Below the pieces are notes generated by a model. The model did not search any database. It was given only the letters and a program-made list of their open reading frames with translations, and was not told the DNA's origin. Position numbers and translations under genes: made by a program. From assembly GCF_964204645.1 (NCBI RefSeq), contig NC_134030.1, positions 20,279,110 through 20,343,109 of the forward strand: DNA of 64,000 bases, in the 5' to 3' direction. The DNA is from Tubulanus polymorphus (lineage: Eukaryota > Nemertea > Palaeonemertea > Tubulaniformes > Tubulanidae). This document shows, piece after piece, positions 3,545 to 52,885 of the stretch. Within the stretch, counting starts at the first letter, position 1, and each line of letters opens with the position of its first letter.

Positions 3545-6500
3545 CTGAAATTACAAACAAAATAAAAACACGGTAAGAAAAAGACATCCACGATGCGAAA
3601 AAAACGTTAACCGCGATTAAAAAAATAAAACGAGAAACAAGAAACATTACCGAACGGTTTTGGATCGTTTAAAATCTTGGAAACGCATTTTTAGTTTAAC
3701 CTTTTCAGTGCGTCTACACGGTGTATAAATCAGTGATAGATTTTGCTAGTACACTGCAATGCGGTGTATCGATGTAATTAGTAATTATCTCTCTTGAGAG
3801 ATGGCAGCACCTGTCAAACATTGTGAAATATTAGTAACTAACGATACACCGCGCCGAGGTGTAGACGCACTATAGTGGTATTCCTGTTATTCAACACACT
3901 AGGGTGGAATTTTTCAGAATTTTCAAATTATCTCCGGCACTATTAGGGTATTGATTAGTCAGCACTGAAAGGGTTAAACTCATTTTGATGTAGAAATTGA
4001 TATATGGAATTGCCTTATAAAAATCCTTATTATTATTGCTTAGAATATTTTTACGAAAGAACCAAAATGTCGGTTGAATTCACGTAAGACGCAGTTTTTC
4101 AACGCAGAGATTTCTCTCATTACGCTCGAATATAAATCGACACAAATCTAATACGTCAGTCGACCGCCGAGACAAAACTTACCGAAACTGCTACAAAAAA
4201 TTAGATTCAGAATTGAAAATTTCTCACAAACCCGTGCGCAAACTGATGATAACTATCACATATACACACAATAACGAATTCAGGGTAGTCGAACTAAAAC
4301 GTGGCCGGGTCTGGGTCGGATTCAGGTAGGGAAGGGTGCTAACCCAAAATATTGCATATCATTAGAATTAAAAGGTACCCTCCTCCTCGTAAGAAAGCTT
4401 ATCGGAAATATAGAGATTCAGCTTATGATTTTAACATTTCTAGGAATCATTTGGATGTGTTTTACTTTCCTGTTGGCGCACCCGCTGCAATGGTGGTACA
4501 TCCTGTGGGATCAAGATATCTTGTAGTAGCTCATGTCTCAGCATATATTCGAGGCCAAAAACTTGAAATTATTTTTTTGTACTAAACTGCGACTAGACAA
4601 ATATTTTATGCACTAGACTTCCCCTAGACAAATATTTTATGTACTAGACTGCCCCTAGACCAATATTTTATATACTAGACTGCCCCTAGACAAATATTTT
4701 ATGCACTAGACTTCCCCTAGACAAATATTTTATGTACTAGACTGCCCCTAGACAAATATTTTATATACTAGACTGCCCCTAGACAAATATTTTATGTACT
4801 AGACTGCCCCATGACAAATATTTTATATACTAGACTGCCCCTAGACAAATATTTTATATACTAGACTGCCCCTAGACAAATATTTTATGCACTAGACTTC
4901 CCCTAGACAAATATTTTATGTACTAGACTGCCCCTAGACAAATATTTTATGTACTAGACTGCCCCTAGACAAATATTTTATGTACTAGACTGCCGCTAGA
5001 CAAATATTTTATGTACTAGACTGCCCCTAGACAAATATTTTATGTACTACACTGCCCCTAGACAAATATTTTATGTACTAGACTGCCCCTAGACAAATAT
5101 AGCATCTTCAGGGCCAAGCATTTAAGTAAAAGGCCAAAGAAAGGAAAAAAAGGCCTAATATGATTTCATGAAATACTACTACACACAATGTAAACTCGTT
5201 TCCAAGATTTTAAACGTCACGTATATGTCTAAGCGGAAATAAAATTACATCAAAAAATGAATACACCGAACTAAACTATAGTCGTGCTTAGATTATCCGT
5301 GTGTTTGCGGTGAGAGTAAACGAATTGAAAACCCGCGGTGCACATGCACTTTAACACAACAAAAATCGAAAACATTGACATTCGAAAATTATGTACGTAA
5401 ATTAGATGAATCAGTCTTGCTTCAGAAGCCGGGGCTTCGACTTGAGAACGGTCTGAGGCTGAACTCAATTTCAACGTTGATCGAAATGAACTCATTTTGA
5501 CTGCGTGAAACCGACTGTTAATGTCACGCCATCTAGACGGAGAGTTAACTGCATCCAGGGGCCAGTTGCTCAAAAGTTGGCTAAAGATAACTGGCCGTTA
5601 AATACCATCGTAACAATGAAATTTCAATTGTCACCATATCAACTATCCACTGGTTAACTCTAACCAACTTTTGAGCACCCGGCCCCTGGTCCGTAGCACG
5701 AGTAATACGCGAGTGGTTTCGTTTCTTATTTGACTGGAACTGAAAGGAGTCCGGGGGACTCCATCAGACAAATAAAATCTAAAATACACGTATTACGTTA
5801 AAATACTTTTAAGTGTAATACGTTTCAGCGTAATAATATAATAATATTTTCAAATAAAAAACGAGTGGAACAAAATCTTTTGGAGCGGGGATTGGATCAT
5901 TCCAACCCCCCGAACCCCTCCACACTACGGGTCTATGCGATGAATATGAGCCAGGCCAGTGACAACTTGCTTCGACTGGTCCTGGCTTAATATCATAAAC
6001 TAGCTTAACTGAAGTCTTTTTCAATATAATCACCACATAATTTCGACGATCAATGCTTTCGGGGGAAGGGTTTTCGGCATGCTGTGCGTTTTTCAAAACG
6101 GCGACGACGACGACGACCACTTACCGGATAGCGTTCGGAAAATTCCGTCGTTTTTCGCGTCGACCTTCGACCAGCCGCGGTCGTTGACGGCGAACACTCG
6201 CGCCTGGTAGTACGTGTTCGGCTTCAGGTCGGACAGCACGTACTCCTGTAAGTTCGGGTCGGCTTTGATGATCAACGGCACGAATTCCGACAACGCTTTC
6301 TCGTACTTTTCGTTTTCGTCGACTGCGACCTGAAAATGGAAATCGAATTTTTACAGGGTGCGGCCACTTTTATTAGAACTGCTTTTTCCCCCCGACTATT
6401 CGCTGACACGCGCTTTGTTTTCCCCTGACTTGACCTGCTAAGATACCATTCAATTAACACAGTCAAATATGTACGACATAGGTGGAAAGCGTTTGATCAT

Positions 6501-7237
6501 AAGCGCTATCAAAATATCTTAACATATTTCCCTAATTATAAGCTTTTTTCTAAAAATCCCTCTGACTTCTCGGAAGAAAATAAAATTTCCCCGAGTTTGC
6601 CCTGATTTACAGAAAAGTCGTCACACTGAATTTCTCGTCGAACTATTGGACAAGGCTATATATGCTACATCTGTTATGCATCCAACACTAGAACTGATCG
6701 GAAATTGTAGGTTAACCCTTTCAGTGCAGTGTATAAATCGGCGATGGACTTCGACCAGCTGGTACACTGAATCCCAGTGTATCGATGTTATTAGTGTTAT
6801 TAACATGTAGTTTTTATCTCATGATTAAAGATGGCAGCATCCGTCAAGAATAGTGAAATGTTAGTAACTAATGATACACTGCATCACATTGTTGACATAC
6901 TATAGTGGTAAGCATCACACTGGGGTTGAATTCTTTTAAGTTTTGAAATTATCTACAGCACTTTCAGGTATAAACTAGTCAGCGCCGTCGAAGGGGTTAA
7001 CAAACGTACCTGTCTATATTCGATCTTGTATGAATTGATCATTAATCCACCGTTTTGTGGTTTCTTCCAGCCCAATACGTGCGAATAAGGGTCGGTGCTG
7101 ACCTTCGACGAGGTTATCTCCACCGCATCGGGTTCGCCTAGAAAAAGACAACGATGATATCCAGAAACAAGGTCTCCACGATTTACTACCTCAATGTGAA
7201 AATCATCTTCACCTTCTGTCATACAATGTTCTCGGTG

Positions 7238-7305: not shown

Positions 7306-10300
7306 GTGTTTTATACAGCGCTAGATCCAGCTTATAAAAACCGGTCAGAGCGCTTCACATAAAAGCCTCATTAAAGAGGAAATGTTTGAGTTGCCTCCTG
7401 AAGATCTCCAGGGGCCGGTTGCATAGTCATGGCTTAAGACTTAAGACCAGTCTAAGACCAACTTCGTTCTATAGCCAATCTAACAACTTAAGACCAGTCT
7501 TAAGATTTAAGACCATTTTTGGGCTTATGTCACGACTGGCCCCTGGTCTCCAGGAAGCTGATTCCATAAGGTCGGGCCATAAATGGGAAGGCCCGAGAAC
7601 CAAAAGACATTCTTTTGTATCTAGGGACTGGAGTCCTGTTGTAAAAACTAATGGAAATGTCACTTACGTATGGTGAGTGTTTTCACTTGTATGTTGCGAC
7701 CATCGCTCGTACCGACATCGTTAATGGCCATCACTTTCACCAGGTACAATGTCTCCGACTGAAGGTTCTTCAGATAAAGCGGTTCATCTGAGGAAATGAG
7801 GACAATACGTAGTTAAATCTCTCGGAAATCACTTTAAACACTGTACTGCATTTATGTGAAATTTGTAAGATAGCGAAGGATATCAGAAAACTTTAAAAAA
7901 ACTTAAGCATATAATGCGGGCAAATCTGCAGCCTGGAACCATCTGCTTCAGAAATTCATGTAAAATCTTGATGATCAGTTTTTGAAAGTGTGCTGATAAA
8001 ATGTCTAATATCTGGTGTTTGTAGTTCATTTTCAATTGGAAATGTCTCAGGTGAAGCACTGAACACATGTGAAGTGTGGACGATCAGTTTTTGAAAGTGT
8101 GCTGATAAAATGTCTAATATCTGGTATTTGGTGTTTGTAGTTCATTTTCAATTGAAAATGTCTCAGGTGAAGCCCTGAACACATGTGAAGTGTGGACGAT
8201 CAGTTTTTGAATGTGTGCTGATAAAATGTCTAATATCTGGTGTCTGTAGTTCATTTTCAATTAAAAATGTCTCAGGTGAAGCACTGAACACATGTGAAGT
8301 GTGGACGATCAGTTTTTGAAAGTGCGCTGATAAAATGTCTAATGTCTGGTGTTTGTAGTTCATTTTCAATTAAAAATGTCTCAGGTGAAGCACTGAACAC
8401 ATGTGAAGTGTGGACGATCAGTTTTTGAATGTGTGCTGATAAAATGTCTAATGTCTGATGTTTGTAGTTCATTTTCAATTAAAAATGTCTCAGGTGAAGC
8501 ACTGAACACATGTGAAGTGTGGACGATCAATCTCTTATAATACGCTGATAAAATGTCTTATGCCTGGCGTTATATGTTATTTCAAGTTATGACAAGAAAT
8601 ATGTCAGGTGCAGTCCTGCATATGTGTTAAGTCTGCTATTACTGTTGCTTTTGCTGTTGCTATTCTATTTATTCTAGAATATTCTATCCATGGAGGGCAC
8701 ACCGATCGTATTGATGAAATTTACCTAATCCGAATGATAAGGGTTGATTCCAGCCGAGCGAGTTCGCGCCTTTCTGCCAGGTCATCTGATACCCTTTGAT
8801 CGGCACTCCGCCGTCTTTTTTCGGCTTTTCGACTTTGACGAGAATCGTCGTTGGCGTCGCCTTCGCCGTGATCGATTCCGGATCCTCGGGACGATCTATT
8901 CACGAGAAAAAAAAACGCAACGTTCGTTCGTTAGAAAAATCGCACAAATTTAATTCTACGCGGGATGGCCACTTTCGCGCCCCGTTAAAAAAGTCCCCAA
9001 GTTTTCCCTGATTTTTTCATGTAATGACAGAAAACTCCGCGAGTGAATCTCTAGAAATTTCTAGATTTAACATGTTGAATTTCATTCATTTTTCAGTGAA
9101 AAAATTCGTTAAACAATTATCAGTTTCTTTCTGCCAATTCACAAATCCCCCGACGTTTTCCCTGATTTTCCCATATCGAAATTCCCCGAGTGAATGGCAG
9201 AAATTTATAGGGATGTTATAGTTCATTCAAACAGTTTCATCGAATCACATATTGATAAAGAAACAAGTGGTCAATAAACGTCATCCAAATTCCCTGAGAT
9301 TTTCCGGTTTTCTGGTGAAATTTGTCATATTCCCTCGTTTTTTCTAGATTTCTTGATATGCCGGAGTTTTTCGGGTTCTCCACCTCGGTGGCCACCCTGT
9401 GTTAGGACATCCCAAAGCTTAGTACAATGGAATTCAGTAATACAGCATCCCGGCAGTGAGACACTGTATTAATAAAGCATACAAACATACACACACTGTA
9501 TTAATACAGCATACAAACAAACACACACTGTATTAATACAGCATACAAACATACACACATACTGTATTAATACAGCATACAAACATACACACACTGTATT
9601 AATACAGCATACAAACAAACACAAACTGTATTAATACAGCATACAAACACACACTGTATTATTATAGCATAAAAAAACATACACACACTGTATTAATACA
9701 GCATACAAACATACACACACACACTGTATTAATACAGCATACACACACGCACACGACACTGTATTAATACAGCATACAAACATACACTGTATTAATACAG
9801 CATACAAACATACACACGCTGTATTAATACAGCATACATACATACACACACTGTATTAATACAGCATGCAAACAAACACAGACTGTATTAATACAGCATA
9901 CAAACAAACGCACGCTGTATTAATACAGCATGCAAACACACGCACTGTATTAATACAGCATACAAACATACACACACTGTATTAATACAGCATACAAACA
10001 AACACACGCACTGTATTAATACAGCATACAAACAAACGCACGCTGTATTAATACAGCATGCAAACATACATACACTGTATTAATACAGCATACAAACATA
10101 CACACACTGTATTAATACAGCATACAAACAAACACACGCACTGTATTAATACAGCATACAAACAAACGCACGCTGTATTAATACAGCATACAAACATACA
10201 CACACTGTATTAATACAGCATACAAACATACACACGCACTGTATTAATACAGCATACAAACAAACTGTATTAATACAGCATACAAACACACGCACACTGT

Positions 10301-13300
10301 ATTAATACAGCATGCAAACAAACACAAACTGTATTAATACAGCATACAAACACACGCACACTGTATTAATACAGCATGCAAACAAACACAAACTGTATTA
10401 ATACAGCATACAAACAAACGCACGCTGTATTAATACAGCATGCAAACACACGCACTGTATTAATACAGCATACAAACATACACACACTGTATTAATACAG
10501 CATACAAACATACACACACTGTATTAATACAGCATACAAACATACACACACTGTATTAATACAGCATACATACACACACAAACTGTATTAATATAACATA
10601 CAAACACACGCACTGTATTAATACAGCATGCAAACACACGCACTGTATTAATACAGCATACAAACATACACACACTGTATTAATACAGCATACAAACAAA
10701 CACACGCACTGTATTAATACAGCATACAAACATACACACACTGTATTAATACAGCATACAAACAAACACACGCACTGTATTAATACAGCATACAAACATA
10801 CACACACTGTATTAATACAGCATACAAACAAACACACGCACTGTATTAATACAGCATACAAACATACACACACTGTATTAATACAGCATACAAACATACA
10901 CACACTGTATTAATACAGCATACAAACAAACACACGCACTGTATTAATACAGCATACAAACATACACACACTGTATTAATACAGCATACAAACAAACACA
11001 CGCACTGTATTAATACAGCATACAAACATACACACACTGTATTAATACAGCATACAAACATACACACACTGTATTAATACAGCATACAAACATACACACA
11101 CTGTATTAATACAGCATACAAACATACACACACTGTATTAATACAGCATACAAACAAACACACACACTGTATTAATACAGCATACAAACATACACACACT
11201 GTATTAATACAGCATGCAAACACACGCACTGTATTAATACAGCATACAAACATACACACACTGTATTAATACAGCATACAAACATACACACACTGTATTA
11301 ATACAGCATACAAACATACACACACTGTATTAATACAGCATACAAACATACACACACTGTATTAATACAGCATACAAACAAACACACGCACTGTATTAAT
11401 ACAGCATACAAACATACACACACTGTATTAATACAGCATACAAACATACACACACTGTATTAATACAGCATACAAACATACACACACTGTATTAATACAG
11501 CATACATACACACACAAACTGTATTAATATAACATACAAACACACGCACTGTATTAATACAGCATGCAAACACACGCACTGTATTAATACAGCATACAAA
11601 CATACACACACTGTATTAATACAGCATACAAACAAACACACGCACTGTATTAATACAGCATACAAACATACACACACTGTATTAATACAGCATACAAACA
11701 TACACACACTGTATTAATACAGCATACAAACATACACACACTGTATTAATACAGCATACATACACACACAAACTGTATTAATATAACATACAAACACACG
11801 CACTGTATTAATACAGCATGCAAACACACGCACTGTATTAATACAGCATACAAACATACACACACTGTATTAATACAGCATACAAACAAACACACGCACT
11901 GTATTAATACAGCATACAAACATACACACACTGTATTAATACAGCATACAAACAAACACACGCACTGTATTAATACAGCATACAAACATACACACACTGT
12001 ATTAATACAGCATACAAACATACACACACTGTATTAATACAGCATACAAACATACACACACTGTATTAATACAGCATACATACACACACAAACTGTATTA
12101 ATATAACATACAAACACACGCACTGTATTAATACAGCATGCAAACACACGCACACTGTATTAATACAGCATACATACACACACAAACTGTATTAATATAA
12201 CATACAAACACATGCACTGTATTAATACAGCATGCAAACACACGCACTGTATTAATACAGCATACAAACATACACACACTGTATTAATACAGCATACAAA
12301 CAAACACACGCACTGTATTAATACAGCATACAAACATACACACACTGTATTAATACAGCATACAAACATACACACACTGTATTAATACAGCATACAAACA
12401 TACACACACTGTATTAATACAGCATACAAACATACACACACTGTATTAATACAGCATACAAACATACACACACTGTATTAATACAGCATACATACACACA
12501 CAAACGGTATTAATATAACATACAAACACACGCACTGTATTAATACAGCATGCAAACACACGCACACTGTATTAATACAGCATACATACACACACAAACT
12601 GTATTAATATAACATACAAACACATGCACTGTATTAATACAGCATGCAAACACACGCACTGTATTAATACAGCATACAAACATACACACACTGTATCTAT
12701 ACAGCATACAAATGTGCAGACACTGTATGGTTACTTACGAGCTTGTTGCAACGTGAATTTATACGTCGACGTATAGGTACGAGCTGCTAATTTATTCGAC
12801 GCGCGACATTCGTACGGTCCGAATATCCACGACTCCATACCCGGCCGGATCTTAACCTGAAATTCAAACGATTTTTACGGTGATGAAACGACTTTCCTCA
12901 ACCTCAATACCCGCCCGCCTTCCATAAATCGTATATGAATAAATTTGCAGAAATAACGTCGGCAATGACTGTACATAGCAAGTACCTGATATATATCTAT
13001 GTAGTTGTTCTCACCAAAAATGAGAGTAATTTGACATCAAAAATAGTAGATTAATCGAAAATGAACTGGGTATTATTCTTGTTTCGAGAGTATTTTGACA
13101 TTTTTCGGAGAAGTTAAACTCTTTAAGAGTAGTTCCTACTCTCCAATGGTAATAGTAGTTAGGTTTGCAGACAATATGCATGTATGACAAACCTGATATC
13201 TCTTCATTGTAGCGGTTTTCACCAAAAATTAGAATTTGACATCGAAAAAGTAAGTCTAATAGAAAATGATCTTGAATTTGAGAGTACTTTGATATTTCTA

Positions 13301-16300
13301 GTAATTGGGCGCTTAGAAAAAGCAAAAACTACTATCAAATACATAGCAGTCGTAGTTATGTCTAGCAAAGGGTAAACGTGATATCGGTTCCAAACGTTAA
13401 ATACCTGTAATATGCTGATCGTGTAGTTGAAGTTGTCGATTATTTTGAACGTGTCGTTTTTGGCGTCGGGATTCTTCGGCAGAATTTGATTGAGCCCGTG
13501 CCACCACGAAAACGAAGGCCGCGGCTCGGCGTACACCTCGCACGTGATGTTCTTCACGTGTCCCGGCCAGTGGTAGATAATAGCCGGCTGGTCTTTCACG
13601 AATTCTGGCGGATCTGAAAAAATACGTATCGGGACGTTTAACAGCGCATCGTCGCAAATTGATTAAAAAGTTAATAAAAAATTGCACCGTCCTTTTCAAG
13701 GCTAAAATCATATAATTTCAGACTGTGGAGGTCTTATTACTGATCTAGTTGATTTCGACACATTAGCACTGAGGAATTCAATACGTAATGTCTATAACTC
13801 CTCAGAACTTCAGGGACGATAACAAAATCCAAATGGTCCCTGACAAAGGGCCAGAAAAGCCCCTTTTTATCCTAGATTTACCGTGGGAAGGCCGATGTAT
13901 ACCAATGCATTGCGCTTGCAGCTCCTGCATTACCAAATCTGCCCCCAAGTAAATTCCAATTTTCTAGTCCACCCCCTCTAAGAATCTAAGCGCTATTCAG
14001 ACCAGTGGGATTGGAACCGTAGCAGCAGCACCGGCGAAAGCCTTGGCAATAATTCACTGAACGGCGTTAATTTTCTTTCTATACCAGGTTCTTGAAGAAA
14101 TTGAAGTAAATTTGCCGGCAACCCGTCAAAAAACACGACAATCGGCCGCGGCAATCAGAAAATTGCTCGTCGCGAGCTGCCGGAAATCGAACTATTCACG
14201 AACTTACATTCGACGATGATAGTTTTATTAACCCTCGTCTCTCCGCCGGCGTTACGAGCGATACACGTGTAATTGCCCGTGTCGAATCGCGACACGTTCT
14301 TGATGAACAACTCGCCGGTTTTCGACACGATCTGGATTCGTTTGTCGTTCTGAAAAACACCGAAAACAAAAAAAATAAACGATCGAGTTTAAACGAAGAA
14401 ACGCAATCTACGAATTTCAAACGCGAATGAAACTACGAAAAAGTTTCATTTCAGAAAACAATCTATAAAATCTTTTTTGCAAAAATATACACAAACCCTT
14501 TCAGTAATGACCGACGCCATTTGGATTATCACGGTGGCCACTTTCCAACAATTTACAAATTCCTCAAGCTCTCCTTGATTTTTCAATATGATTACGGGAA
14601 GCTACCCCGAGTGAAATAGAGAAATTTCTATGTTTAACCTTTTCAGTGCGTGTACACCGCGGTGCGGTGTATGAATCGGCGATGGATTTTGCTAGTACAC
14701 CACACTGCGGTGTATTGATGTAATTAGTTATTAGTTTTTATCTCTATTGAAAGATGGCAGCACCTATCAAACATAGTGAAATATTAGTAACTAACGATAC
14801 ACTGCACCCAGTGTAGACACACTTAAGTGGTATTCCCGTTATTCAACACACTAGAGCAGAATTTTTCAAAATTTTCAAATTATCTTCAGCACTATAGGGT
14901 ATTGATTAGTCAGCACTGAAAGGGTTAAAATCTCACAACTCATTTTTTCCTTGAATCACGTATTCAAGGCTTTCATAGTATGTAATCGTTCAAGTATTTG
15001 TCTTAAGTCTCTATTAGAACTTTTGTTTTTCTCAAATTTTTCAATCATCATCATTGTTAACCTATTGTATCTTATTCTTATACTCTGTATGCCTCAGTCC
15101 GTAAGGATTTTAAGTACAATAAACAGTCATTTGAATTGAATTATTCATAAAGAAACACGCATGGTCAATAGCATTATGCGAATTCAGAGTTTTCGCGGTT
15201 TTTGGTTAAATTCGTCAACCCCTCATCCGGGTCGGCCTCGCGCGAGCGTGAAGAAACTGTTCGCCACTTACCGGTTGAAATCCTTCGACGTACGGTTTCT
15301 TACTGTAGACTTTCAGGAACTCGATGGTCGCCGCTGGTTTCGCTTGCACCTCGCAATGTAGCGACACGTCCTCGCCGATCACCGGTCGTTTATCGTAGTA
15401 TCGATAGATTCTCGGCGGCTCTGAAAAAATAAAAACAATCGATTTTTCACTCGACATGTTTCGAACCTAAAATAACGAAAATGCCTCGATATAGACGAAA
15501 ATATATAGTTTGAAAATGTTTCCTCGAGCTAGTGTAGTTTATTCGACGTTTCGACTATATCCTAATAGTCATCTTCAGGAATACTGTATTCCTTGAGCTA
15601 GTGTAGTTTATTCGACGTTCCGACCATATTATCCTAATACTGACGTTCAAACTGACCAATGGACTGACTGACTAATTGACCAACCAACGGATGAACTGAC
15701 CGACTAACAACCGGACTCACCGATCAACCAACCGATGAAATCACTGACTAATGTATGCACTGACCGATAGATAAGGTCACCAACTGTCAAGACTGACGAC
15801 TGATGGATGTTCTGACCGTTCGACCGATGTATGGAATGACTGACGATCCACTGGAATGACCGACCGACCATCACATCCGACCAACGGTCCAATACTAATA
15901 TTCTACTCGCCGATTTTCTATCATTCTATAATTTTCTCTCATACTGACCTATAACGTTGATGGTTACTGTAGCGCGGGCGTGAGACAGGTCGTTCTTAGC
16001 TTCGCATATGTAATCGCCGCTGTCGCTCGATTCTAAATTCCATATCGTAAACTTGCCCTGGAATTTATCTTCCTGGCTATACTTATCGCCGATTAGTGGC
16101 GTGTCTGGCATGTTCGCCTGTAATGAGAAACGATTAATAGAGATCAGTCGGACCAATTATCATTACTAGATCATCAAAATAAAATATCATATTCAGTGAG
16201 GATTCCTCGCGATAAAATAGCCTATTCTACTTTGGGCAAGTTAGTGTTCGATGGTACATCAACTACTGCGGCAATAGAGGATTCCACTTGTGGCAAGTGA

Positions 16301-19300
16301 GGATCCACCAGGTGTCACTAGTTTGCAGTAGGAAATCAACTTCTGACACGGTAGAGGATTCCACTTGTGGCAAGTGAGGATCCACTAGATGCCGCTAGTG
16401 TGCAGAAGGACATCAACTACTGCGGCAATAGAGGATTCCACTAGTGGCAAGTGAGGATCCACCAGGTGTCGCTAGTGTGCAGTAGGACATCAACTACTGC
16501 GACAACAGGGGATTCCACTTGTGGCAAGTGAGGATTAACCAGGTGTCACTAGTGTGCAGTAGGACATCAACTACTGCGACAACAGGGGATTTCACCTGTG
16601 GTAAGTGAGGATCCACTAGGTGTCGCTAGTGTCTAGACGAATGCCCGATTTCAAGTGAAATCTATCTATCATTTTTTCAAATTAACGAAGAAAATTATAA
16701 GCTATAGATCGTAAAGATCAATGCGAGTTGATCTTAAGACATTATTTACCTGATTTTTCTATGTGACGCCCAAAAAACTACATCCTCCCCGGCAGGGATT
16801 CGAACCTGATGGCATCGAGATTGCCACGGTTAGAAACCATGCCACACTAGACTGGAGTGCGAAGCTACACGCGCAGCTAAGATGATGTCATTATCAGCCA
16901 ATCAGATACCCGGTTTTATTTTAGCACGGGTTTTACCATTTATAGTTCTTCCGTGAAATTAATCTCAGAGATTATACAACAAGCAATTGGTGTCGCAACT
17001 ATTCAAAGCTGCGCATGTACCTGCGCACCCGGTCTAGTGTGGCAGGGGTTCGTGCCGTGGCTGAGTGTAGCGATGCTATCAGGTTCGAATCCCTGCCGAG
17101 GGAGGATGTAAAAACTAAGATCAACGATGTACAGTTGAAAATGAACTTAAGTTTCATCCAACTCTCTTGATGACCACGTTGCTACTAATCACACTTACCC
17201 GGTAGAGAGCGAATTTAGGTAATGGTTTACCGGTAGCTTCGCACACTATCGTTACTCCTTTCTGAGCGATCGCCGGATTCAACAATTTCGGTTTCATCGT
17301 TATCTTCGGCGGAGCTACGAAAAAAAGAGGAGTTCACCGTGAAATAGAGAAGTCGGACCGACGGGAACTGGGTGACCCGCGCGTCGGTTCCTATAGCGAA
17401 TATATAGACAACGGCTGCGATCACACGAGCGTTTGGAGCGAACAACTGTTCACACGGGTGCCCGAATGTGCCCGTGTCCGTTTGGCCCGAGCAAAAACTT
17501 CGGCCCAGGAAAGAGCCAAATTTTAGCACGGGACAAATGCTTGTGTTTGAACTGCAACTGATTCCGGGAATCACCCACTTCGCTTTGTTTAAGCATTGTT
17601 GATATCGAGTGAGTGGTTTGCGCGTGAACGCGCTCACTATATAGGCACGGGCCAAATTTGGACAGACCAAAAACGTCGGACCAGGCCCGAGCCAAATTTT
17701 AGCACCATACAAACGATTGCCTTTGAATTGCAACTAGCACCGGAAAGGATCCACTTCGCTTTGTTTGAGCATTGTTCAGTATCGAGTCAGTGGTTTGCGT
17801 GTGAACGCGCTCTCTAATTCGATACGGGCAAAATCTGAATCATCTGCGTGTGATCGCGGTCAATGACAGCTAGATTTCATACTTACTGTACACTTCGACT
17901 GTGATAGCTCGCGGCTGTATGTCTCCTTTCAGTTCGACCTCAGCCGTACACGTATAGATTCCGTTATCGGCTTCGGTCATGTTCTTTATACTCAATCCTT
18001 TATTACCGATCTGATATCTGTCACCTGGTTCAAAATAGTATATTCATATGAAAAACATTGACTAGAATTCACGTCAAATAAGATTCTGTCATGAGAACTT
18101 AGGCCTCATAGGCCAGTAGCGCGGGGTGTCAAGGGACCCCAAGGGGGTTACGACAAACCGCCCAAAATCTGAAAAGGTCCGCATTTAGCATTTGGAAAAC
18201 AAATTTTCAGAAACTTTGGCCTCGTCCTACATACTCCCGCAGCAATTGACCTACAGGTACTTAGGAATAACATAAATAAGAGACCTTGATCTGCAAGCAT
18301 TTTGCAATCCGAAAGGGAATGCTTCAGGGTTCATATAGTGTTCATGACCAATCTTATTTAATGACTTACAAGGACTCTTTTTACTCTGAGGGATCATTCA
18401 TTTATTACGTTCGCATTAGGGGAGGGGGAGGGGTCAGTGCGATTGCATACGGTAATGCTTAATGTATATAAAAGAATGGCCGATTTTGCGTACAGAGGGG
18501 GAGGGTAGGTTAAAAAATTCAAATTTTATGCGTACGTAATAAATGAATGATCCCCGATTCCAGGAATCATATATATCATATAATCGTCATGCTTAAAGCA
18601 GGAATCATGAAATCTTTGTGCATGTCCAAAAGCTTCAAATTATATTGGTGTGGCAAGACAGACACCGATCGAGGACCGTGATCATGATTAAAGGATTTTA
18701 GAGGCCACGAAATCAGTCATGCTGCAGACCCTGAGGTGCTTCCAATCAGCAAAACCACCGGATGATATCATCGGGACCGAACACGCCATAAGATACCACC
18801 GGCGGATAGACTTACCGATAGTAATTGGTCGTCTGGGACTGTTCTCATTTTTACGGTAGGACCACGTGACCTGCGGAGCCGGCGAACCGCTCACGACGCA
18901 CCTGATCAACCCGTCCTGGTAAATAGCCGGATGTTGTTCCCTCGCGCAATCGTCCCACGTTATTTTCTCTGCAAAGAATATCGGAATCAAATTGTAGGTA
19001 AATGGCGCGTATTTCTATTAAGCATTCAATTCAAAGAGCATGAAGTTCATTATGTGGCATAGTGTGGCTTGGCATAGTGTGGCTTGCATTTTGGTTAAAC
19101 AGAAATTACTAAATATTCATTACAAAATGTTCCCACCAATTTCGACCAACAGGATTTGTAGCAGTCTGACTGATACTGAGTCAGCAAATTTTTGAAGTCG
19201 AGTCAACACTTTTAGCACTCGATAAAGTCAAATGTCAGTACTTTAAAGCATTTTTCAAAAGTCATAAGTCAGCACGTAGTTCCTACATCAATGATTAAGC

Positions 19301-22300
19301 TATGAAATAAGCAAAATGCGTTTTTAATCAAATTTGAAATTTGTTTTTCAAAACCAAGAAACCTAAGCCTTGAAATTTGGTTTAAATCTGTATCTGGAAA
19401 GACACAATAGACCTGCCACAGGATTGGTAAGTAGAAAAATCCTAAGACGAGACTCGGAGTCCGAAAAGAGAAGTACCTAAAGGATTTTATTACCAGGATG
19501 CACGGTTTCATGGACTGAGTATCGAAGTTATCCCAAGGGATAAATCCTTAATCCGGGTCCAGTTCCACAGTCCTGAAGATTTGACTCCGAGTTAACTCAT
19601 TGAAAATGAACTAAATCTAACTCAGAGTTAACTCTAACTCACAATTGTGGAACTGAGTCCTGGGGCCGGATCCATAGTCATGACTTAGACTTACGACTGG
19701 TCTAAGACTCTTTTAGTTATATAGCTAATCTAACAGCTTATGACCAGTCTTAAGATTTAAGACCACTTTTGGACTTAAGTCTCGACTATGGAACCGGCCC
19801 CTGGGTAACAACCACCATAGTAACAATGAGGAACCACCGTTAAAACTGAAACATTTAGAAATGTTCCCAGGGACTATATTTCTTCCATTTCTATGAATCC
19901 GAGCCCTGGAAAGCCAACTCTAATCACAGCCTAACCTAGATTTTTTCCGTAAACGCTTTTCAGAATTTGTAGTTGAGTTGCGTAACCCTCCGATGAGTTC
20001 AACACGTTCGATAAATATTTCGAATCAACTCCTATCGTACGTAAATATTCTTTCTTTATCATATTAGTTTTTCGCAGCAGTTACAATTGATTTTAATCAT
20101 TTGAACAACATGATATCTAGAAAAAAAAAAAAACTCGGTACGACTAAACCGGGGTGCCTCGGCGACCGGCGGGCTGGCCTCGAGCCTAAAAAGTATTTCG
20201 AGACAACTAATCGAATTTCACAGCGACACCAGCGGGTAGACGAGCGTTTAATATAATATAAATAACAGGAAATGAAATCGAAAAATAAATTTATTTCCTG
20301 CTGTCAATAAAAGGGTGTTGGCAATATAAATACCCGTATCTCCGCAAACAGTCTGTCAATTTCATCGATCGCGACCAATCAACGACGGGTGTTGAATTTC
20401 GTTCAATCGACATCGCGGATCGTAAAAAAGTGAAATCAACGTCAGTCACTCGTTTGATATCGACATATCGTTCGGAATTATCGAATCTGTAGAGAGTGTG
20501 TTCGAATACCGTACAGGCTCAAACCATTCAGCGCGTCTACACCGCAGTGCGATGCATGTTCGAATACCGTACAGGCTCAAACCTTTCAGCGCGTCTACAC
20601 CGCAGTGCGATGCATGTTCGAATACCGTACAGGCTCAAACCTTTCAGCGCGTCTACACCGCAGTGCGAAGCATGTTCGAATACCGTACAGGCTCAAACCA
20701 TTCAGCGCGTCTACACCGCAGTGCGATGCATGTTCGAATACCGTACAGGCTCAAACCTTTCAGCGCGTCTACACCGCAGTGCGAAGCATGTTCGAATACC
20801 GTACAGGCTCAAACCTTTCAGCGCGTCTACACCGCAGTGCGATGCATGTTCGAATACCGTACAGGCTCAAACCATTCAGCGCGTCTAAACCGCAGTGCGA
20901 TGCATGTTCGAATACCGTACAGGCTCAAACCTTTCAGCGCGTCTACACCGCAGTGCGAAGCATGTTCGAATACCGTACAGGCTCAAACCTTTCAGCGCGT
21001 CTACACCGCAGTGCGATGCATGTTCGAATACCGTACAGGCTCAAACCTTCAATTCAAGGGAAAGGGTTCAATTCAAAATTCAAGCCACATTTCAATTTCT
21101 GCCACATCACACGAAATCCACAATCATCGAATTAAAAATCCAAAAAATTCAAAAGCCCAAAAATCCACGTTGAAATCACAATTTCAAATTCAACATTTTG
21201 CCTCAATATGATTATAAAAGTCTTTAAACTCGAACTTCATAATACTCACCATCACTGAAACATATTGAACATTTATTCAACAATTCGTTAATCTATTCAA
21301 TTTGATTTCGAGTAATTAACTACAGTATACATAAAACGATTACTAAAAGCAAGAAAAAGTGCAGGGAATTTAGATTAAACATAATATATGCTGTAACACC
21401 TATTAGTAACATACTTACCAGTATAGGCAATGCATCTGAAATATCAAAACAATCCCAACCCTTCAGCTCCCCCTGTTCAAACCAACCGGGCTCCAAACTT
21501 ACCCTAACTTTATTCAAGTAAACCGCTTTGGTTTGCTAATTACAGATTCGCAGAAAAACGACGATTTTGCAAGGCATACCACAGATATTATTGGCATGGC
21601 AAAACACTTTTCCGACCACTTTCAATGTGAATAATGGAAAGTTAGTTGAAACCAGTAAAACATTAATAGTTAACATTTGAAACATTTGTTAACATTTTTA
21701 GAATTAATATGGACAATATATAATTTAATTATAAATATATAAATATTAATATATTAATATGAATAATTCACTAGGGCTATGCGGTGATAATGTCTGCGTC
21801 ATATAATGGGGGCAAATGACAATGGGTACATGCCAATTGAGGATCCACCAGGTGGCGCTAGAATGGTGTACTGAAGGGCAAATGACAGCTACTGCGGCAA
21901 TCGAGTTCCACCTTAAGTTTCCAGTATATCATGGAAAGTCAACTGACTGCTTGGGCAATTGAGGCTCCACTAGGTGGCACTTCTATGATGCCACAATTGG
22001 GTATCGGACTCGTCCGACAATCAACGATCCAATAGGTGGCGCTAGTATAAGTTGCGGATGTGGATTACAGCATTCCAACAACTCAGTGTCGCTAGTCACT
22101 GGTCAGTTAATGTAATAAGTGAGTAAATTATCATTATACGTAATTTCACAAATCAGGGTGACCTCGATTCATGATTGGCAGGTTTAATCTCCGGGAACTG
22201 GACGATGAATATCCACTAATCTAACGTCCATCAATCAAGTGGAGCATTGAGATTATTCAGAGAGGATTAAGGATCGGTTAGGTGATTGTAATCTTACTGA

Positions 22301-23486
22301 ACAATATATAATTCAAAGGAGTTGGACTTCGAAAGGATGTTATGATCAGATAAAAATGAAATACAGTAAACCATGCACGAAGTCAGTTAAATGCTGAAGT
22401 GAAGGGGAAATGTCTCTTTAACTCGCTTGGTTCTGATAAGTCGTACATCTACACCGCAGTGCAGCATAGACACTCAGCATTGATTGCCTTTCTTTATACA
22501 TCGCACTGCGATGTATCCATATAGATATTAGTTAGTTATAATCTCTATTGAAAGATGGCAGCACCTGTCAAACATTGCGGAATATGAATAACTAACGATA
22601 CACCGCACCGCACTGCGGGTAAACACAATATAACGGTATGCCCATTATACACTGCACCGTTGTGCAATTTTCCAAAATTGTCAATTCATCTCAAACACTT
22701 TTAGGGTAAGAAGCCAGATCAGTCAGAACTGACGAAATTCAATTCAGGTGGACCGCAATTAACATTTGGATTAAAAATCTATCAGGTAGACAGGAGTTCA
22801 GTTAAATTTTTCCATATTTGAGTAGAACACAAACCCACTAAAATCGGAATTGCATCTACCGATCAATTCTGTAAATTCGACCGCCGATCACACTTAATCT
22901 GTATTTCAATTTCCGATTTCAAAACCAAACCCCGTTTCGCTACCGGCAGGCAGGTACGGCGGTTTGTAAGGGACTCCGAATCAAACAAATCATCAGCCTT
23001 TTTTAAAACCTTTTTGTCCGGGTACAAGAAGTCGTTCCATTTCGAAAACTCGCGCATGGTTTACTGTTATCGATTACGAATATGAATGTATTATACTGAA
23101 TTGTATAAATATATGTAAATATGTATAAATTAGTCCACGCGGGTTAAGTACGTAGTAGAGGTAGTCGAATTATGAATATGTTTCGGGGGGGGGGGGGACT
23201 TACTGTAAATGATCATGAGAGCCGACTCGGGCCGCACGTTCCGAAACGTTTTAGACCGGCACATGTACGTGCCGTAGTCCATTTCGGACACGGGATAAAA
23301 TATCAATTTCAAAACGGTTTTATCGCCGGCGTTAGTCTCTAAATACCTGTCGAAAACGAAAGTGAAATAAAAAAAACGCGGGGAAAGGAAAAAAAAACGT
23401 GTGCACAAAATAGGGGGGAAACAGCGCGATACGCATGCATACAGTATCAATAGGGGGAGGGGGAAAATAAACACATGCAAGAAGAT

Positions 23487-23548
<62 letters not shown>

Positions 23549-26500
23549 AAATGATGATTTAAGCTAAACGAATTTGATGACGATACTTGAACCAGTACAC
23601 ATCATTACTGAGGAAAGCAAAAATTACTGTAATTTAGATCAGGCTTTAAGCAGCTTTCCAATACAAATACGCCAAAACATGGTCGATGGGTAGGTTTTGG
23701 TTTGATGAAATGACGCAGACCCACGCCGCAGTTTGCGGAACTGGATCCGGAGTTGAACTAAACCCATACAACTGCGGAACTGGATCCGGAGTCGAATTAA
23801 ACCCGCATTGATGGCTAAAATGACATCGACTTAAATCAGGTCCACGCTAAAACTGCAGTTCACGGAACTGGATCCAGAGCGAAATTAAAACCTACACGAC
23901 TGTGGCGCGGCCGGGTTCGGTCAAATTAAACCCGCACACAAATGAAGAACTGGGTTAAGTCGAAGTCAGATTGGACCCATAACAGAATTCAGCTTCCGGC
24001 AATGGGATACTGATTTTTTTGACACTATGTAAGTTACGCAATCAGAATTTCTAACAGAAGAAAAATATACATTGCTGAAAATTGTTCGATGATTTATCAT
24101 TCTCACTATCTAATCAGTGGCGCATACTTGTGCTTCTTAATGATTACCACTTCATAGATAGTTGCACATTCCATAATAAAAACTCGCAAAAATTGCTACG
24201 ATCAATTTGCACTATAGGAATGACGATACGACTGAAGCTGCTCGAAGCCTGACAACCACATGAAAATACACTGCATTTAGCCGGTGTTTAGAGATTTCTT
24301 TTTCCATTAAGCGAAGGCTGAAATCCTGGGGGAGGGTACCCCGATATTTAAACAAATTTGTGAAGAACGTAGTTTCGCGTTATAGGAAACGATTATCAAT
24401 TTTAACCCCCTACACCATACGATGCGTATGTGCTTCAGGAAGTATAAGCCCGTTCGCATAAAATTTGTTCGGTAATTTTCAAAGAGCAAAACTAATATCT
24501 GAACTTTAAACCGTTCCGCTAGCCTGAAAATTGACTCAGACACTAAATTCACTACCCTGGAAAAAAAATTCTCAAACTCCAACCACTCACATTACGTAGT
24601 AGCGACTAAACATTGGACAGAAAAAATTTTTCTCATGCGACTAAAAATGAATCTGATTTGAGACCTATAATGATAAAAACAAAGCGACATGCAACCAGTG
24701 AATACAGACATACAGTTAACCTCGCTTAGCAGCAGCTTAGACTATACCGGAACATGTGGGCCTATCTTACTTTAGAAATCTTATAAGTAGCCTTTACGAC
24801 TCGAACTAATTTTAATTTGGATCCTCCTCACTTGCTGCATGGCTTGATTGCCGCAGTAGTTGATGTCCTACTGCACACTAGCGACACCTGGTGGATCCTC
24901 ACTTGCCATAAGCGGAATCTTCTATTGCTGCAGTTAGTTGATGTCCTGCTGCACAGTAGCGACAACTGGTGGATCTTCACTAGCCACGAGTAGAATCCTC
25001 TATTGCCACAGTTAGTTGATGTCCTACTGCATAGTAGCGACACCTAGTGGATCCTCCCTTACCACAAGCGGAATGCTCTATTGCCGCAGTAGTCGATTTC
25101 TTACTGCACACTAGCGACACCTAGTGGATCCTCACTTGCCATAAGCGGAATCCTCTATTGCTGCAGTTAGTTGATGTCCTACTACACAGTAGCGACACCT
25201 AGTGGATCCTCCCTTACCACAAGCAGAATGCTCTATAGCCGCAGTAGTTGATGTCTGACTGCACACTAGCGACACCTGGCAAATCTTCCCTTGCAGCAAG
25301 TGGTATGTATAAGCAATTTCTAAGTACGTAGTATGGCCAATAACACAGTATACAATTCTAATAGGCGATCTTGAACATTAATAGATATTCTAAGCGAGGT
25401 TTACTGTAGCCTCCGAACAGAACATGCAATAAATGGATATATATATATATACATATATTATACATATGCTCTCCTAAAACCGTGTGCCCGTGAACCTGTG
25501 TCGCGCGTGTCTAGACAGGTCAGCGCAGCGCGGAGCGACTTACTGTAGATGAATAACTCTTGTTGCACCTCGGTCGTGACGCCGCCGCCGCGTAACGATC
25601 GACACTTGTACGTGCCGCCGTCGTCCATCGTGACCGGATAGAATATCAGTTTCAATACGGTCAGCTCTCCGGCGTTCTGCTTAAGCGTCCTGTATGAGCG
25701 GCAGCGTTGAGGAGAAATTAACATCGACACTTGAATTCATACGAACCCGAGTTTGAACCGTCGGTATATTCATTGGAATCGAAAAGGCGGCAAAATACGG
25801 GATAATATTCGAGCAATGGGAGGGTGGTTCAATCCATTCTCGGTTATATGCGTCGGGCAAACAATAGTTAGTTTTTTCATAAAACTATCAAAATCTTGAA
25901 CTGAACAATTTTGCTAGCAGACTCCTCCTCCGCGACTCAAATCCAAGCGGAATTATTACTTTGAATTCGTAGTTCTAAGAATGAAAGCAATGAACTATCC
26001 ATGGGGCTCGTTAGAACTCAGTTAGAATTCCAACATTGACCATATGTTAACCCTTTCAGTGCATCTACACGGCAGTGCCGTGTATAAATCAGTAATGGCC
26101 TTTGTCCGCGGCATATCCATGCAATTGCCAATTAGTAATCATCTCTATGGAAAGATGGCAGCAGCTGTCAAACTTTCTGAGATATTACTGTCAATCACAA
26201 CATTCTGAAATATTGGTAACTAATGATACACCGTATTACAGTGTAGGCACGCTATAACAATACACTGCACTGCAGGACTGAGACACAATATAGTTGAATT
26301 ATACACTACTGCAATCACTGATTTATACACCGCACTATAGTTTAGATGCATTAAAGGGTTGAATATGAATGTGTTTAACTAAATTTAACTATCATTGGTC
26401 GGTGGATTAGAGCTAGGAGCAGTCTGCTGTAAGGAGCAACCATCAACCCTTAATCTGCCATGATACGACCAGAACACGGTTGAGACCGCGAACAAAGTTG

Positions 26501-29500
26501 AGACCGCGAACAAAGTGTAAGCGTTTGTCATTCAGGAACATCTTATGGGTCTAATGGGTTAAGGAAAAGAAAGTTCCCCGACTTTTCCGAGATTTCCAAC
26601 TAAGCGGCCACCGCGGTCAATTCATTCGAATTAGTAATGAAACGAATGTAAGCGAAAAAATCTACGTACCGTCTGTCGGTGCTGGTGATCTGTTGGGAGT
26701 CGGGATCGAACCAGGCGAGTTGAGGATCGGTGCCCGAGTCGACGTTCAACGCTTTGCAAGTGAACGCGAACGCCTCGTTCACCGGTCGCACGACGTTACC
26801 AGACGGCAAAATCTGCAGCTTTAAACTATCTGAAATAGAAACAATAATAATCATCGAATAATTCAGTTAAACGGACGTTTAGGATTTCGTTGAAATCAGC
26901 GCACGGGTCGTGTGGCCGAGACCAGGTGAGTGAACACCTTCAGTAAGTTAAACCCTTTCAGTGCTGACTAATCGATACCCTATAGTGCTGGAGATAATTT
27001 GAAAATTCTGAAAAAATCCGCCCTAGTGTGTTGAATAACGGGAATACCGCTATAGTGCGTCTACACCGCTATACCGCTATAGACGTCACTAGGGTCTTCA
27101 TTCCAAACAATGATGAAAGGCGAAATCTTTTCTAAATTCTAGTGAAATCACGAACTTCATGCAATAATTGAAAATCCTAGGAAAATGGAAACCAGAAAAA
27201 ATCGAAACCTTTAACCCTTTCAGTGCTGGCTAATTAATACCCTATAGTGCTGAAGATAATTTGAAAATTCTGAAAAATTCCACCCTTGTGTGTTGAATAA
27301 CGGGAATACCACTATAGTGCGTCTACACCGCGGCGCGATGTATCGTTAGTTACTAATACTTCACTATGTTTGACAGGTGCTGCCATCTTTCAATAGAGAT
27401 AATTAGTAATTACTAATTAAATCAATACACCGCAGTGCGCTGTACTTGCAAAATCCATCACTGATTCGTACACCGCACTGCGGTGTAGATGCACTGAAAG
27501 GGTTAACGGTTTTCAAGATATAAGATATTGGTCTGATCCGTGCCCGAGGAGAGCAACGCTTTCTCACGATCGAGACACATTGTTCGTACTTCTCTCGCTG
27601 TTTTTAGATTCCATCATTAAACTACGTCTGCTAATTATGACTCCGGGTACGAACACGTGGCGTTCCCCGGCACTCCCGACGTTTTCATATATCTTACTCT
27701 TTTTTCCTAACGCGTCCCTCCGGGATGCGGTTACCTTGGAAACTCGGGTGACACGTGATGTATCGCGCTGCAGGTATCCGTGCGCCGAAAAAATGAATTT
27801 TATCGCGTTTTCTTTAAAGCAATAAACAAACCGTGAGTGTTGCGTGCCTGGTGTCGCGCCGAAGATTTACTACATCGCTATACGGATGAAATTGTAACGG
27901 GACAATTTTTCTCATTCGTCAGACTTCTATTAACCCTTTCAGTGCATCTACACTGCAATTCGGTGTATAAATCAGTGATATATTTTGCTAGTACACCGCA
28001 ATGCTGTGTATTGATGTAATTATCTCTCTTGAAAGATGGCAGCACCTGTCAAACATAGTTAAATACTAGTAACTAACGATACACCGCGCGGTGTAGACGC
28101 ACTATAGTGGTATTCTCGATATTCAACAAACTAGGATGGAATTTCTAAAAATTTTCAAATTATCTCCAGCACTATATGGTATTAATTAGTCAGCACTGAA
28201 AGGGTTAAATGCAATAATTCATAAACTGTTCAAAACAATATTCATTCACAAAGAACCTCAGTATACGACAGTCACGGCGACAAAATAATAACAAGCCGTA
28301 GGCGACAACGGTTCTCGGGCTCAGACCCTAACTACGAAATTACCATGCGTTCGTTCCCGTTGCATTTTGGATACGATGTATCTACCTAAATTTCGGCAAA
28401 ACAACTTTTTGAATTTTTTCCCCGGGCTAGAATTAAACGAGATATCTGATTGGCTGATGTTGACATCATGCGCACGTGGCTGCGCACTCGGTCTAGCGTG
28501 GCAGGGTTTCGTACCGTGACAGTTCTGGCAAGGATGGAGTCCACATTGTGATGAAACATAAACTCATGTTCTAAAGGCTATGTACTTGTCTCTTTCTAGC
28601 TGAATTCTATATTATATTATATCGTTAATCCTGTTTTAGGAACTACCGTCGTCGGGCCCGGGATTCGAAGCCCTACCAGACCTGAATGACCGTAGGCATA
28701 CTTGAAATAAATCGCGCCACTTAAAGAGTGAAACCGATAATCAAGCGTTAATTCATGTCGTGCTAACGAGTGCGATTAGCGAATTGTTATCACATCATTA
28801 ACGGATTCTTAACACCTTTGACCGGTGCCACATCTGCCCGCAACACGAGATTCAAACCTGAATGACAGCCGTGCGTATCCAGAGACAAGACGCGCAGAGT
28901 GTTTTAGCAAATGTTCGTAACGCAAGTTGATAAGAAAAGGATATCCTGGCAGCGTCCTTCGACCACTTAAAAGAAGTATTTCTGGCAAAATAGCGCCAGT
29001 GATTTAAGCCTCTAGTCAAGAACACGCTGGAAGGAAATAAATCGAAAACATCTTCTATTGATGAAATATCTTCCATCCAGTCTCGATAGTTTCATTTCAA
29101 TTTTTCAGTATTTTTAGTATGCTAACAAAACATCTAGTTAGGTACGCAATCAGGATATCGAGATGCAGATCTTCGGGTGGTTATCTGTAGTTTTTCTAAA
29201 CATGTTGTAATCGGTGTTTGGTCACCAGGGGCCAGTTGCATAGTCATGGCTTAGACTTAAGACCAGTCTAAGACCAACTTCGTTCTATAGCCAATCTAAC
29301 GACTTAAGACCAGTCTTAAGATTTAAGACCAATTATGGACTTGAGTCTCGACTGTGCAACTGGCCCCTGGTTTCTATCTGCGACAGTGAGCGAGTATCAC
29401 ATCATCTACATTATCAATAACAGCAGCAAGACAATCATTAACTACTATATGTTCGGAATTGTTTTGCACTCCGATATCTATCGGATAGCAGCGGCTATTT

Positions 29501-49862: not shown

Positions 49863-49919
49863 ATTGTATACCGGTTCAGATCTTTCTAAAAGCATACCGG
49901 GATATGTATAAATCAATTT

Positions 49920-51937: not shown

Positions 51938-52885
51938 ATGAATTCTTCTCAGATGCAGATCGGACGACCTTACAACAGTTACATCGTCCTCATGTCTTTG
52001 GAAAACAGGTCTGGAAGCTACCGTACGCTTTCGTTTGCCATACTGTTCATTTTATTCCTGTTAGGAGCCTTCGGGAATTCGACTACCTTCCTGATAATGA
52101 TAAGTCGTAGATTCCGCGGACTATCTTACGCTAACTATCTGATCGTGTTGTCCGCGAGTGATTCGCTGTACTGCGTAAGTCTAACTTTGATGCCCGTTTT
52201 ACAGTTCGTCCTCTTGCACGTGGACGCCGGTCCCGTATATGTGATGACTTCGTTGATCAGTTGTAAAATCTATGAATTTTTCATGGAGCTTGGCGGCACC
52301 AATAGTTCGTGGTTGATAGTAGCTGTGTCATTAGAACGCGCGGCGGTTGTTCTCTTCCCGTTCACATCTCGTTTGATATGTACACCGAGATTCGCTAGAT
52401 TTACTATAATGACGATTACTACAGTAAATGCACTGGTAATATATCTCACACCTGCTTTGGTGTTACATTTCTCCAAGTTTCTCGGATGTTTCCACGAACT
52501 TCGTGATCAAATCATGTTTTTCACCATAATCGTCATCTACGCTAATCTTATACCTTTAACGTTGATCGTCACGTCGAATTCTGTAATAATAGTTCAGTTA
52601 TTCAGAGGTTCAAAAATGGTTTCGTCCGATCAGAAAACGACAAAATCAAAACGTACGACAATAATGCTCGTAACAGTTTCACTCGCATTTGCAGTTTTCA
52701 CACTTCCGTCTTGTATTACTACATTTTTATCGATTTCACCGGAACAGAGAGAATCGCTACTCGACATATTCACTCAATTCCATGTTTGTAACTTTGTGGT
52801 AAATTTCTACATATATCTTCTACTTGGGCGTGAAATTCGTGAATATTTCTGTATGAAATTCTGTCGGCGAAATTCAGTCAAATAA
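51938..52885 (+). CDS. Intronless rhodopsin-class G-protein-coupled receptor, 315 aa
   Basis: There are seven hydrophobic segments: TM1 about 31-55 (with GN at 46-47), TM2 62-90 (LSASD), TM3 104-140, TM4 154-178, TM5 192-222, TM6 240-264 and TM7 276-298. Cys109 before TM3 and Cys184 in loop 2 can form the class-A disulfide. The DRY box is ERA (133-135), the TM6 CWxP motif is replaced by FTLPS, and NPxxY is NFYIY (289-293), so it is a divergent, probably peptide- or chemosensory-type receptor. The N terminus has sequons (NSS, NRS) and no signal peptide. A polyadenylation signal AATAAA lies about 65 bp after the stop. A near-identical partial paralogue lies inverted at 63.5 kb. Ligand unknown. 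Confidence 0.88.
   Translation: MNSSQMQIGRPYNSYIVLMSLENRSGSYRTLSFAILFILFLLGAFGNSTTFLIMISRRFRGLSYANYLIVLSASDSLYCVSLTLMPVLQFVLLHVDAGPVYVMTSLISCKIYEFFMELGGTNSSWLIVAVSLERAAVVLFPFTSRLICTPRFARFTIMTITTVNALVIYLTPALVLHFSKFLGCFHELRDQIMFFTIIVIYANLIPLTLIVTSNSVIIVQLFRGSKMVSSDQKTTKSKRTTIMLVTVSLAFAVFTLPSCITTFLSISPEQRESLLDIFTQFHVCNFVVNFYIYLLLGREIREYFCMKFCRRNSVK

Follow-up and report, generated by a model that had tools for sequence, protein, structure and literature searches.

An NCAM/fasciclin II/apCAM-type gene of the palaeonemertean Tubulanus polymorphus (Nemertea) was found to carry two homologous copies of exon 3, here named 3a and 3b, which probably form a two-way mutually exclusive splicing switch resembling that of FGFR2. 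The gene lies on the minus strand of a 64,000-nucleotide stretch of the 268-Mb genome (C6:20279110-20343109), hereafter the window, and all positions are those of the window unless preceded by a contig name. Exon 2 (26670..26829, GT-AG, 100% identical to the protein P0002) encodes the first half (strands A-C) of the outermost immunoglobulin (Ig) domain, Ig1, and ends in phase 2. Exons 3a (25544..25689, 146 nucleotides, nt) and 3b (23204..23346, 143 nt) each encode an alternative second half of this domain, and exon 4 (18816..18968), placed by the exon model, encodes the first half of Ig2.

The joined exons, in the 3b form, matched with 100% identity over 707 residues the NCBI model “neural cell adhesion molecule 2-like isoform X2” of T. 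polymorphus (P0002); given this model, the locus is already annotated. The exon model and Pfam predicted five Ig and two FnIII domains followed by a transmembrane helix and a cytoplasmic tail, the helix lying at residues 740-763 of P0002. After the gene itself, the best named full-length matches were the insect fasciclin-2 proteins P0004 and P0005, with 30% identity to the ant protein P0004. NCAM2 (2wim) was the top PDB chain for Ig1-Ig2, and it came second to the Robo2 chain 6iaa when the whole ectodomain was compared. One full-length gene of the NCAM/fasciclin II class was found in the T. polymorphus genome.

The intron ends carried AG and GT at all 15 modelled exons (2 to 15, with 3a and 3b counted separately). 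Both copies of exon 3 are entered in phase 2 and left in phase 1, as read from the end of exon 2 (AGA CG|); as neighbouring homologous exons of similar length and equal phases, they have the arrangement expected of a mutually exclusive pair. The four possible joins were read. The joins 2-3a-4 and 2-3b-4 kept an open frame through exon 6. When both exons were included (2-3a-3b-4), the frame read ...IYSI*, with the stop as the third codon after 3a (codon 104), and when both were skipped (2-4) the frame shifted and was closed by a stop at codon 92, counted along the reading that begins in exon 2. Hence, productive messages are exclusive by frame, since joining or skipping both exons gives an early stop, as is expected of such a pair. 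The exon bounds proposed in a first-pass annotation of this DNA, its four junctions (26670-25689, 26670-23346, 25544-18968 and 23204-18968), the phases and the fate of the two faulty joins were all correct. Its view that the phases force the use of a single exon also stood. The either-or frame is no special device, however, because the 2-1 phase belongs to the host introns and is shared by a partial duplicate of the gene that has one exon 3. A tandem copy of such an exon would therefore be exclusive by frame from birth, and the frame argues for exclusive productive messages, not for a dedicated mechanism. Steric or U12-based exclusion was thought unlikely, as the exons lie 2197 nt apart and their GT-AG sites have U2-like donors. 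The intact splice sites of 3a and the conservation described below speak for its use, and it is likely that 3a is used and that the two exons exclude each other. Searches by tblastn for a third copy of exon 3, which covered the window together with five 10-kb pieces next to it, gave only short, unconvincing matches (E 0.55 to 1.6).

The likeness of 3a to 3b, as judged by tblastn (E = 6e-10, 70% over 30 residues), exceeds chance. Identity reached 23 of 47 aligned codons and was unevenly spread, with 21 of 31 in the first part, through CRS, and 2 of 16 in the last part. The Nei-Gojobori (NG86) synonymous distance (dS) between the copies was 1.85, near saturation, and the non-synonymous distance (dN) was 0.60, giving a dN/dS of 0.32. 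This ratio was 0.20 in the first 31 codons and 0.87 in the last 16, and the latter value is no evidence of positive selection, because synonymous sites there are saturated and few. The dN/dS between 3a and exon 3 of the partial duplicate was 0.16. These comparisons point to a constrained Ig1 framework and a divergent segment after the cysteine, in agreement with the earlier claim of a shared framework that diverges beyond this residue. The Ig1-Ig2 part carrying 3a retrieved five distant relatives, besides the gene itself, at E ≤ 0.01. Identity between the two exons was 49-53%, depending on the method. To the corresponding segments of five relatives (three fasciclin-2 proteins, two from insects and one from a crab, a bivalve protein and an unnamed protein) it was 15-24% for either exon, pointing to a duplication later than the divergence of these lineages. 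The signals on the order of descent are contradictory: against NCAM2, the 3a form scored 103.2 bits and the 3b form 89.7 bits, whereas the alignment scores of four of the five relatives favoured 3b.

Joined to exon 2, either copy completed an Ig domain by the Pfam ig model (34.8 bits with 3a and 34.0 with 3b, cut-off 21.8). With the I-set model the scores were 28.3 and 22.9, the latter slightly below the cut-off of 23.7. The earlier call of alternative second halves of the membrane-distal Ig1 in a molecule of the fasciclin II/apCAM/NCAM type was thereby borne out by the exon model and Pfam. Of the structure modelling that had been proposed for both forms, the 3b form was carried out, as an AlphaFold2 model of P0002 based on a thin alignment of 6 sequences (mean predicted local distance difference test, pLDDT, 75; predicted template modelling score 0.39). 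Ten-residue blocks of Ig1 had pLDDT values of 72-83, and the strands were placed at residues 22-26 (A), 39-46 (B), 55-59 (C), 72-76 (D), 83-88 (E), 97-104 (F) and 112-117 (G). Exon 3b corresponds to residues 73-119, and hence the switch would exchange strands D, E, F and G; exon 3a was placed as the same C-terminal half by alignment. According to the model, most of the change falls on the F-G hairpin and the G strand, with the core common to both forms. After the cysteine, 3a aligned with NCAM2 without gaps and 3b required one gap. It seems somewhat likelier that the two forms differ in binding than that they bind alike, and the switch would then change the partner or the strength of adhesion; the switched binding specificity proposed in the first-pass annotation is plausible.

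The acceptors of the two exons also differed in T content. Between positions -23 and -6, 3 T were counted for 3a, compared with 6-13 in the other 14 acceptors listed and 11 in that of 3b. Furthermore, motif counting placed the hexamer TGCATG, the Rbfox motif, once within 150 nt after 3a (25423..25428, minus strand, about 116 nt 3' of the exon) and twice within 150 nt before 3b (23474..23479 and 23434..23439, minus strand, about 133 and 93 nt 5' of it). The two upstream sites match in sequence the UGCAUG that precedes the second exon in switches of the FGFR IIIb/IIIc type. The presence of the motif in both 150-nt windows had a shuffle P of 0.0025 (0.0045 with 200-nt windows), unadjusted, and the 3a-3b intron held four copies where shuffles gave 0.83 (P 0.006). 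Around the 14 other exons (1, 2 and 4-15), the 150-nt flanks contained TGCATG in one place only, with two copies in the minisatellite intron that follows exon 11. Only 14 of the 4096 hexamers occurred in both windows, and only TGCATG and TTTATT had at least two copies before 3b; TGCATG was among the five of these 14 that were absent from 22 other exon flanks, a count that omits the flanks of exons 1, 11 and 12. No TGCATG was found in the two introns beside exon 3 of the duplicate (340 and 454 nt). Exons resembling the Rbfox RRM were detected in the genome at C4:24071505 (72%) and C4:24086713 (62%). As a separate observation, the intron between exons 11 and 12 (8896-12738) contains an extended stretch of short repeats with open frames of the YSVCMFVCCINTVCVCLYAVLIQ type on either strand, and 16 TGCATG and 110 TGTTTG on the minus strand.

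In FGFR2, passages of one study describe a first exon with a weaker 3' splice site, a second exon used by default, and repression of the latter by Fox at UGCAUG before it (PMC2880598). In Caenorhabditis elegans, RBFOX is described as repressing egl-15 exon 5B through UGCAUG upstream of it (excerpt of PMC3585155) and as promoting a daf-2 exon through a downstream UGCAUG (excerpt of PMC4876481). By analogy, the layout around 3a and 3b fits both rules, namely that upstream UGCAUG represses and downstream UGCAUG promotes. Under the proposed mechanism, exon 3 would have been tandemly duplicated in this lineage, and each copy would supply strands D-G of Ig1, so that the protein made would bear one or the other version of the outer Ig domain. 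Exon 3b, with its T-rich acceptor, would be the default. An Rbfox-type protein bound to the two UGCAUG sites before 3b would repress it and, assisted by the UGCAUG after 3a, the T-poor 3a would be chosen where this protein is active. A tissue-specific partner of Rbfox is probable, as ESRP is in FGFR2, and messages with both exons or neither would carry an early stop and presumably be destroyed. Control by Rbfox itself is a post hoc suggestion that was given less than even confidence.

Several observations weigh against this scheme. The only transcript model seen, isoform X2, uses 3b, the protein cluster that holds it has three members, another of which may carry 3a, and among 41 candidate short proteins none resembled the joined 3a form at E ≤ 1. 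The acceptor of 3a is poor in T but not in pyrimidines (12 of 18 positions, with 15 of 18 for 3b and a range of 8-15). TGCATG also occurs away from exons, at 24693 in the middle of the 3a-3b intron, at 26123 in the 2-3a intron, once in the 3b-4 intron and six times in intron 1. Moreover, the motif was noticed by eye before it was tested, in one genome, and four other patterns were counted too; for these two reasons, prior notice and the additional counts, the UGCAUG reading is a lead only. In FGFR2 itself, Fox alone is described as having a smaller effect than ESRP, and its largest effect together with ESRP (passages of PMC2880598). The sole transcript model and the T-poor acceptor would suit another explanation, that only one exon is used, 3b, with 3a silent or decaying (or the other way round). 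This was nevertheless considered improbable, as each exon has an open frame and undamaged splice sites, the 3a-like sequence of the duplicate is constrained, and the 3a form outscores the 3b form against NCAM2. Neutral decay was also simulated, by substitutions only, starting from 3a, to distances of 0.5, 1.0 and 1.5. At these distances 15, 11 and 10% of the copies remained open, and the 99.9th percentile of residue identity was 58, 35 and 27%. The observed 49% lies above the percentile at the two larger distances, so that unconstrained decay fails there, but a recent silencing, at 0.5, could account for it. Nothing was seen in favour of an assembly artefact or an uncollapsed haplotype, and either was scarcely credible, given that 24 of the 47 aligned residues are not shared by the copies, which stand in order in one intron series, with unrelated flanks, on a single 23-Mb contig.

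Two further explanations accept the switch and differ in how it is controlled or what it serves. Control of the Dscam1 type, by competing intronic pairings with one docking site and a selector for each exon, was judged unlikely. Duplexes were scanned in 40-nt windows for four intron combinations, with three shuffles each and low-complexity windows dropped; the 3b-4 intron was covered in the first 120 of its 209 kept windows. The 3a-3b and 3b-4 introns gave a strong pairing of -51 kcal/mol, compared with -34 to -39 in the three shuffles, which would loop out 3b, and the 2-3a and 3b-4 introns gave a small excess (-34.8 vs -31.6 to -32.2). However, the two remaining combinations went no more than 0.2 kcal/mol beyond their best shuffle, and the strong pairing was made by inverted copies of a 77-bp minisatellite that is dispersed in the genome (at least 211 matches) and brackets 3b only, not both exons. 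Its array in the 3a-3b intron (24847..25277 on the minus strand, or 24847-25294 in a wider delimitation, unit 77-78 bp) is not specific to the switch, and the inverted copies lie across 3b at 21830-21987. Such pairing could loop out 3b but does not amount to a docking/selector system, and no dedicated docking/selector pairing was found in the four intron combinations scanned in this one genome. A stronger alternative, held to be a real possibility though not the favoured one, is that the switch serves a heterophilic ligand or a cis contact between Ig1 and Ig2 instead of homophilic specificity. The FGFR forms IIIb and IIIc select different FGFs, and the tyrosine aligned with NCAM Tyr65, a cis-contact residue, is retained in both exons (FYPV). 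The net charge after the cysteine, 0 in 3a and +3 in 3b, would suit a different partner as well as a different fit to self. On the other hand, NCAM and Fas2 proteins are best known for homophilic adhesion.

The partial duplicate lies 335 kb away (loci L012 and L013, C6:20640423-20638560) and contains counterparts of exons 2, 3, 4 and 5, that is, of Ig1-Ig2, with intact splice sites, an open frame and one exon 3 found. No convincing counterpart of exons 6-15 was observed in the 150 kb searched, nor in a whole-genome search, in which scoring covered 49 of 130 candidates and identity of the other matches did not exceed 36%. Exon 3 of the duplicate shared 85% residue identity with 3a. Between the full-length gene and the duplicate, dS was 0.49 in exon 3 (3a) and 0.15, 0.10 and 0.13 in exons 2, 4 and 5. 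Exon 3 differed from these three exons both in synonymous differences (12/33.2 vs 11.5/96.8, Fisher P 0.003-0.004) and in all differences (20/141 vs 29/441, P 0.008). For exons 4 and 5, and downstream of exon 2, the intron flanks matched between the genes (z 4-19), and the upstream flank of exon 2 gave z 2.0. The flanks of the duplicate's exon 3 matched neither 3a (z 0.6, -0.4) nor 3b (0.7, 0.3). The duplicate's exon 3 may be a third member of the array, but the same pattern could also come from gene conversion affecting the other exons or from rapid turnover of the introns around exon 3. In a bolder scenario, which we regard as doubtful, the ancestral gene had three or more interchangeable Ig1 halves in an array. 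Through segmental duplication and loss, the full-length gene would have kept 3a and 3b, while a third variant ended up in the separate Ig1-Ig2 gene, which may encode a decoy or a secreted partner. Exons would then have been born and lost in a Dscam-like way at an independent site, NCAM/fasciclin II in lophotrochozoans, under an FGFR2-like Rbfox switch.

The remaining exons of the adhesion gene are all on the minus strand. The coding part of exon 1, for the signal peptide (MRALLILSVVLGLSVQLI), lies at 45344..45397 and was located by tblastn with the N-terminus of the NCBI model (100%). The other exons in the window were placed by the exon model: exon 5 (17887..18024) for the second half of Ig2, exons 6 (17199..17314) and 7 (15949..16117) for the first and second parts of Ig3, 8 (15272..15420) and 9 (14208..14349) for those of Ig4, 10 (13405..13613) and 11 (12739..12856) for those of Ig5, 12 (8725..8895) and 13 (7668..7787) for those of FnIII-1, and 14 (7010..7137) and 15 (6125..6329) for those of FnIII-2. 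The transmembrane and cytoplasmic exons lie beyond the window, from C6:20276699 down to 20267239, as located by whole-genome and tblastn matches; the gene thus extends from window position 45397, in exon 1, to C6:20267239, where the last residues of the model are encoded. A 58-bp tandem array at 20499-21049 has 9.5 copies with 97% matches and is open in more than one reading frame. Upstream of the adhesion gene, an open frame with a PAN domain (PF00024) was observed at 49491-49916 and a 315-residue frame of a rhodopsin-type receptor (Pfam 7tm_1) at 51938-52885. A 154-residue frame of the 7tm_1 family on the opposite strand, near the window end and likewise upstream (63534-63998), resembles the latter by eye.

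NCAM/fasciclin II molecules are usually viewed as a single recognition surface with variable tails, and the variants known in the NCAM family concern the VASE insert, the tails and the anchors. Use of both exons would mean that, in one animal phylum at least, the outermost domain of these molecules is subject to a coded choice, and this would be an independent case of a half-Ig exon switch. Its layout allows one to ask whether the FGFR2 logic, with a weak first exon, a strong second exon and Rbfox between them, arises repeatedly by convergence, and it would offer a compact two-isoform system for how half an Ig domain alters adhesion. In fly Fas2, exon 4 is described as marking isoform RF (excerpt of PMC11911433). 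The first-pass annotation knew of no such pair in fasciclin II genes; no exclusive Ig1 pair in NCAM/fasciclin II/apCAM genes was found in the open-access literature among the matches listed, which agrees with that statement but is not proof.

The switch had been described earlier as Dscam-like. The arthropod Dscam1 exon 4, 6 and 9 arrays and the Dscam2 Ig7 pair are similar in that mutually exclusive exons encode portions of the Ig domains of a neuronal adhesion molecule. The Dscam arrays hold many variants each and use docking/selector RNA structures. The Drosophila Dscam1 arrays are described as encoding the N-terminal halves of Ig2 and Ig3 and the whole of Ig7, and Dscam-hv as having 10 Ig and 6 FnIII domains (passages of PMC3364881). 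The Tubulanus gene, in contrast, has five Ig and two FnIII domains and two alternative exons for the C-terminal half of Ig1. Hence, the pair of alternative half-Ig exons was upheld, but the analogy with Dscam is loose, since a C-terminal half would be exchanged in an FGFR2-like layout. The closest working parallel is FGFR2, in which IIIb and IIIc are alternative C-terminal halves of one Ig domain, as in the Tubulanus pair. FGFR2 is a receptor kinase in which the membrane-proximal Ig domain is switched, whereas the Tubulanus gene encodes an adhesion molecule with the putative switch in the membrane-distal Ig, and no kinase family was present among the precomputed Pfam domains of P0002. As described for FGFR2 exons 8/9 (IIIb/IIIc) in passages of PMC2880598, the second of the two exons would be the default and is preceded by UGCAUG. 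The egl-15 exons 5A/5B of C. elegans are similar in being mutually exclusive exons, of an FGF receptor, with UGCAUG-RBFOX repression, but they belong to another gene family, depend on SUP-12 and have the repressed exon upstream (excerpt of PMC3585155). The half-Ig exon pair is real and well formed and is of a kind known from FGFR and Dscam, and the NCAM/fasciclin II family is its unexpected host.

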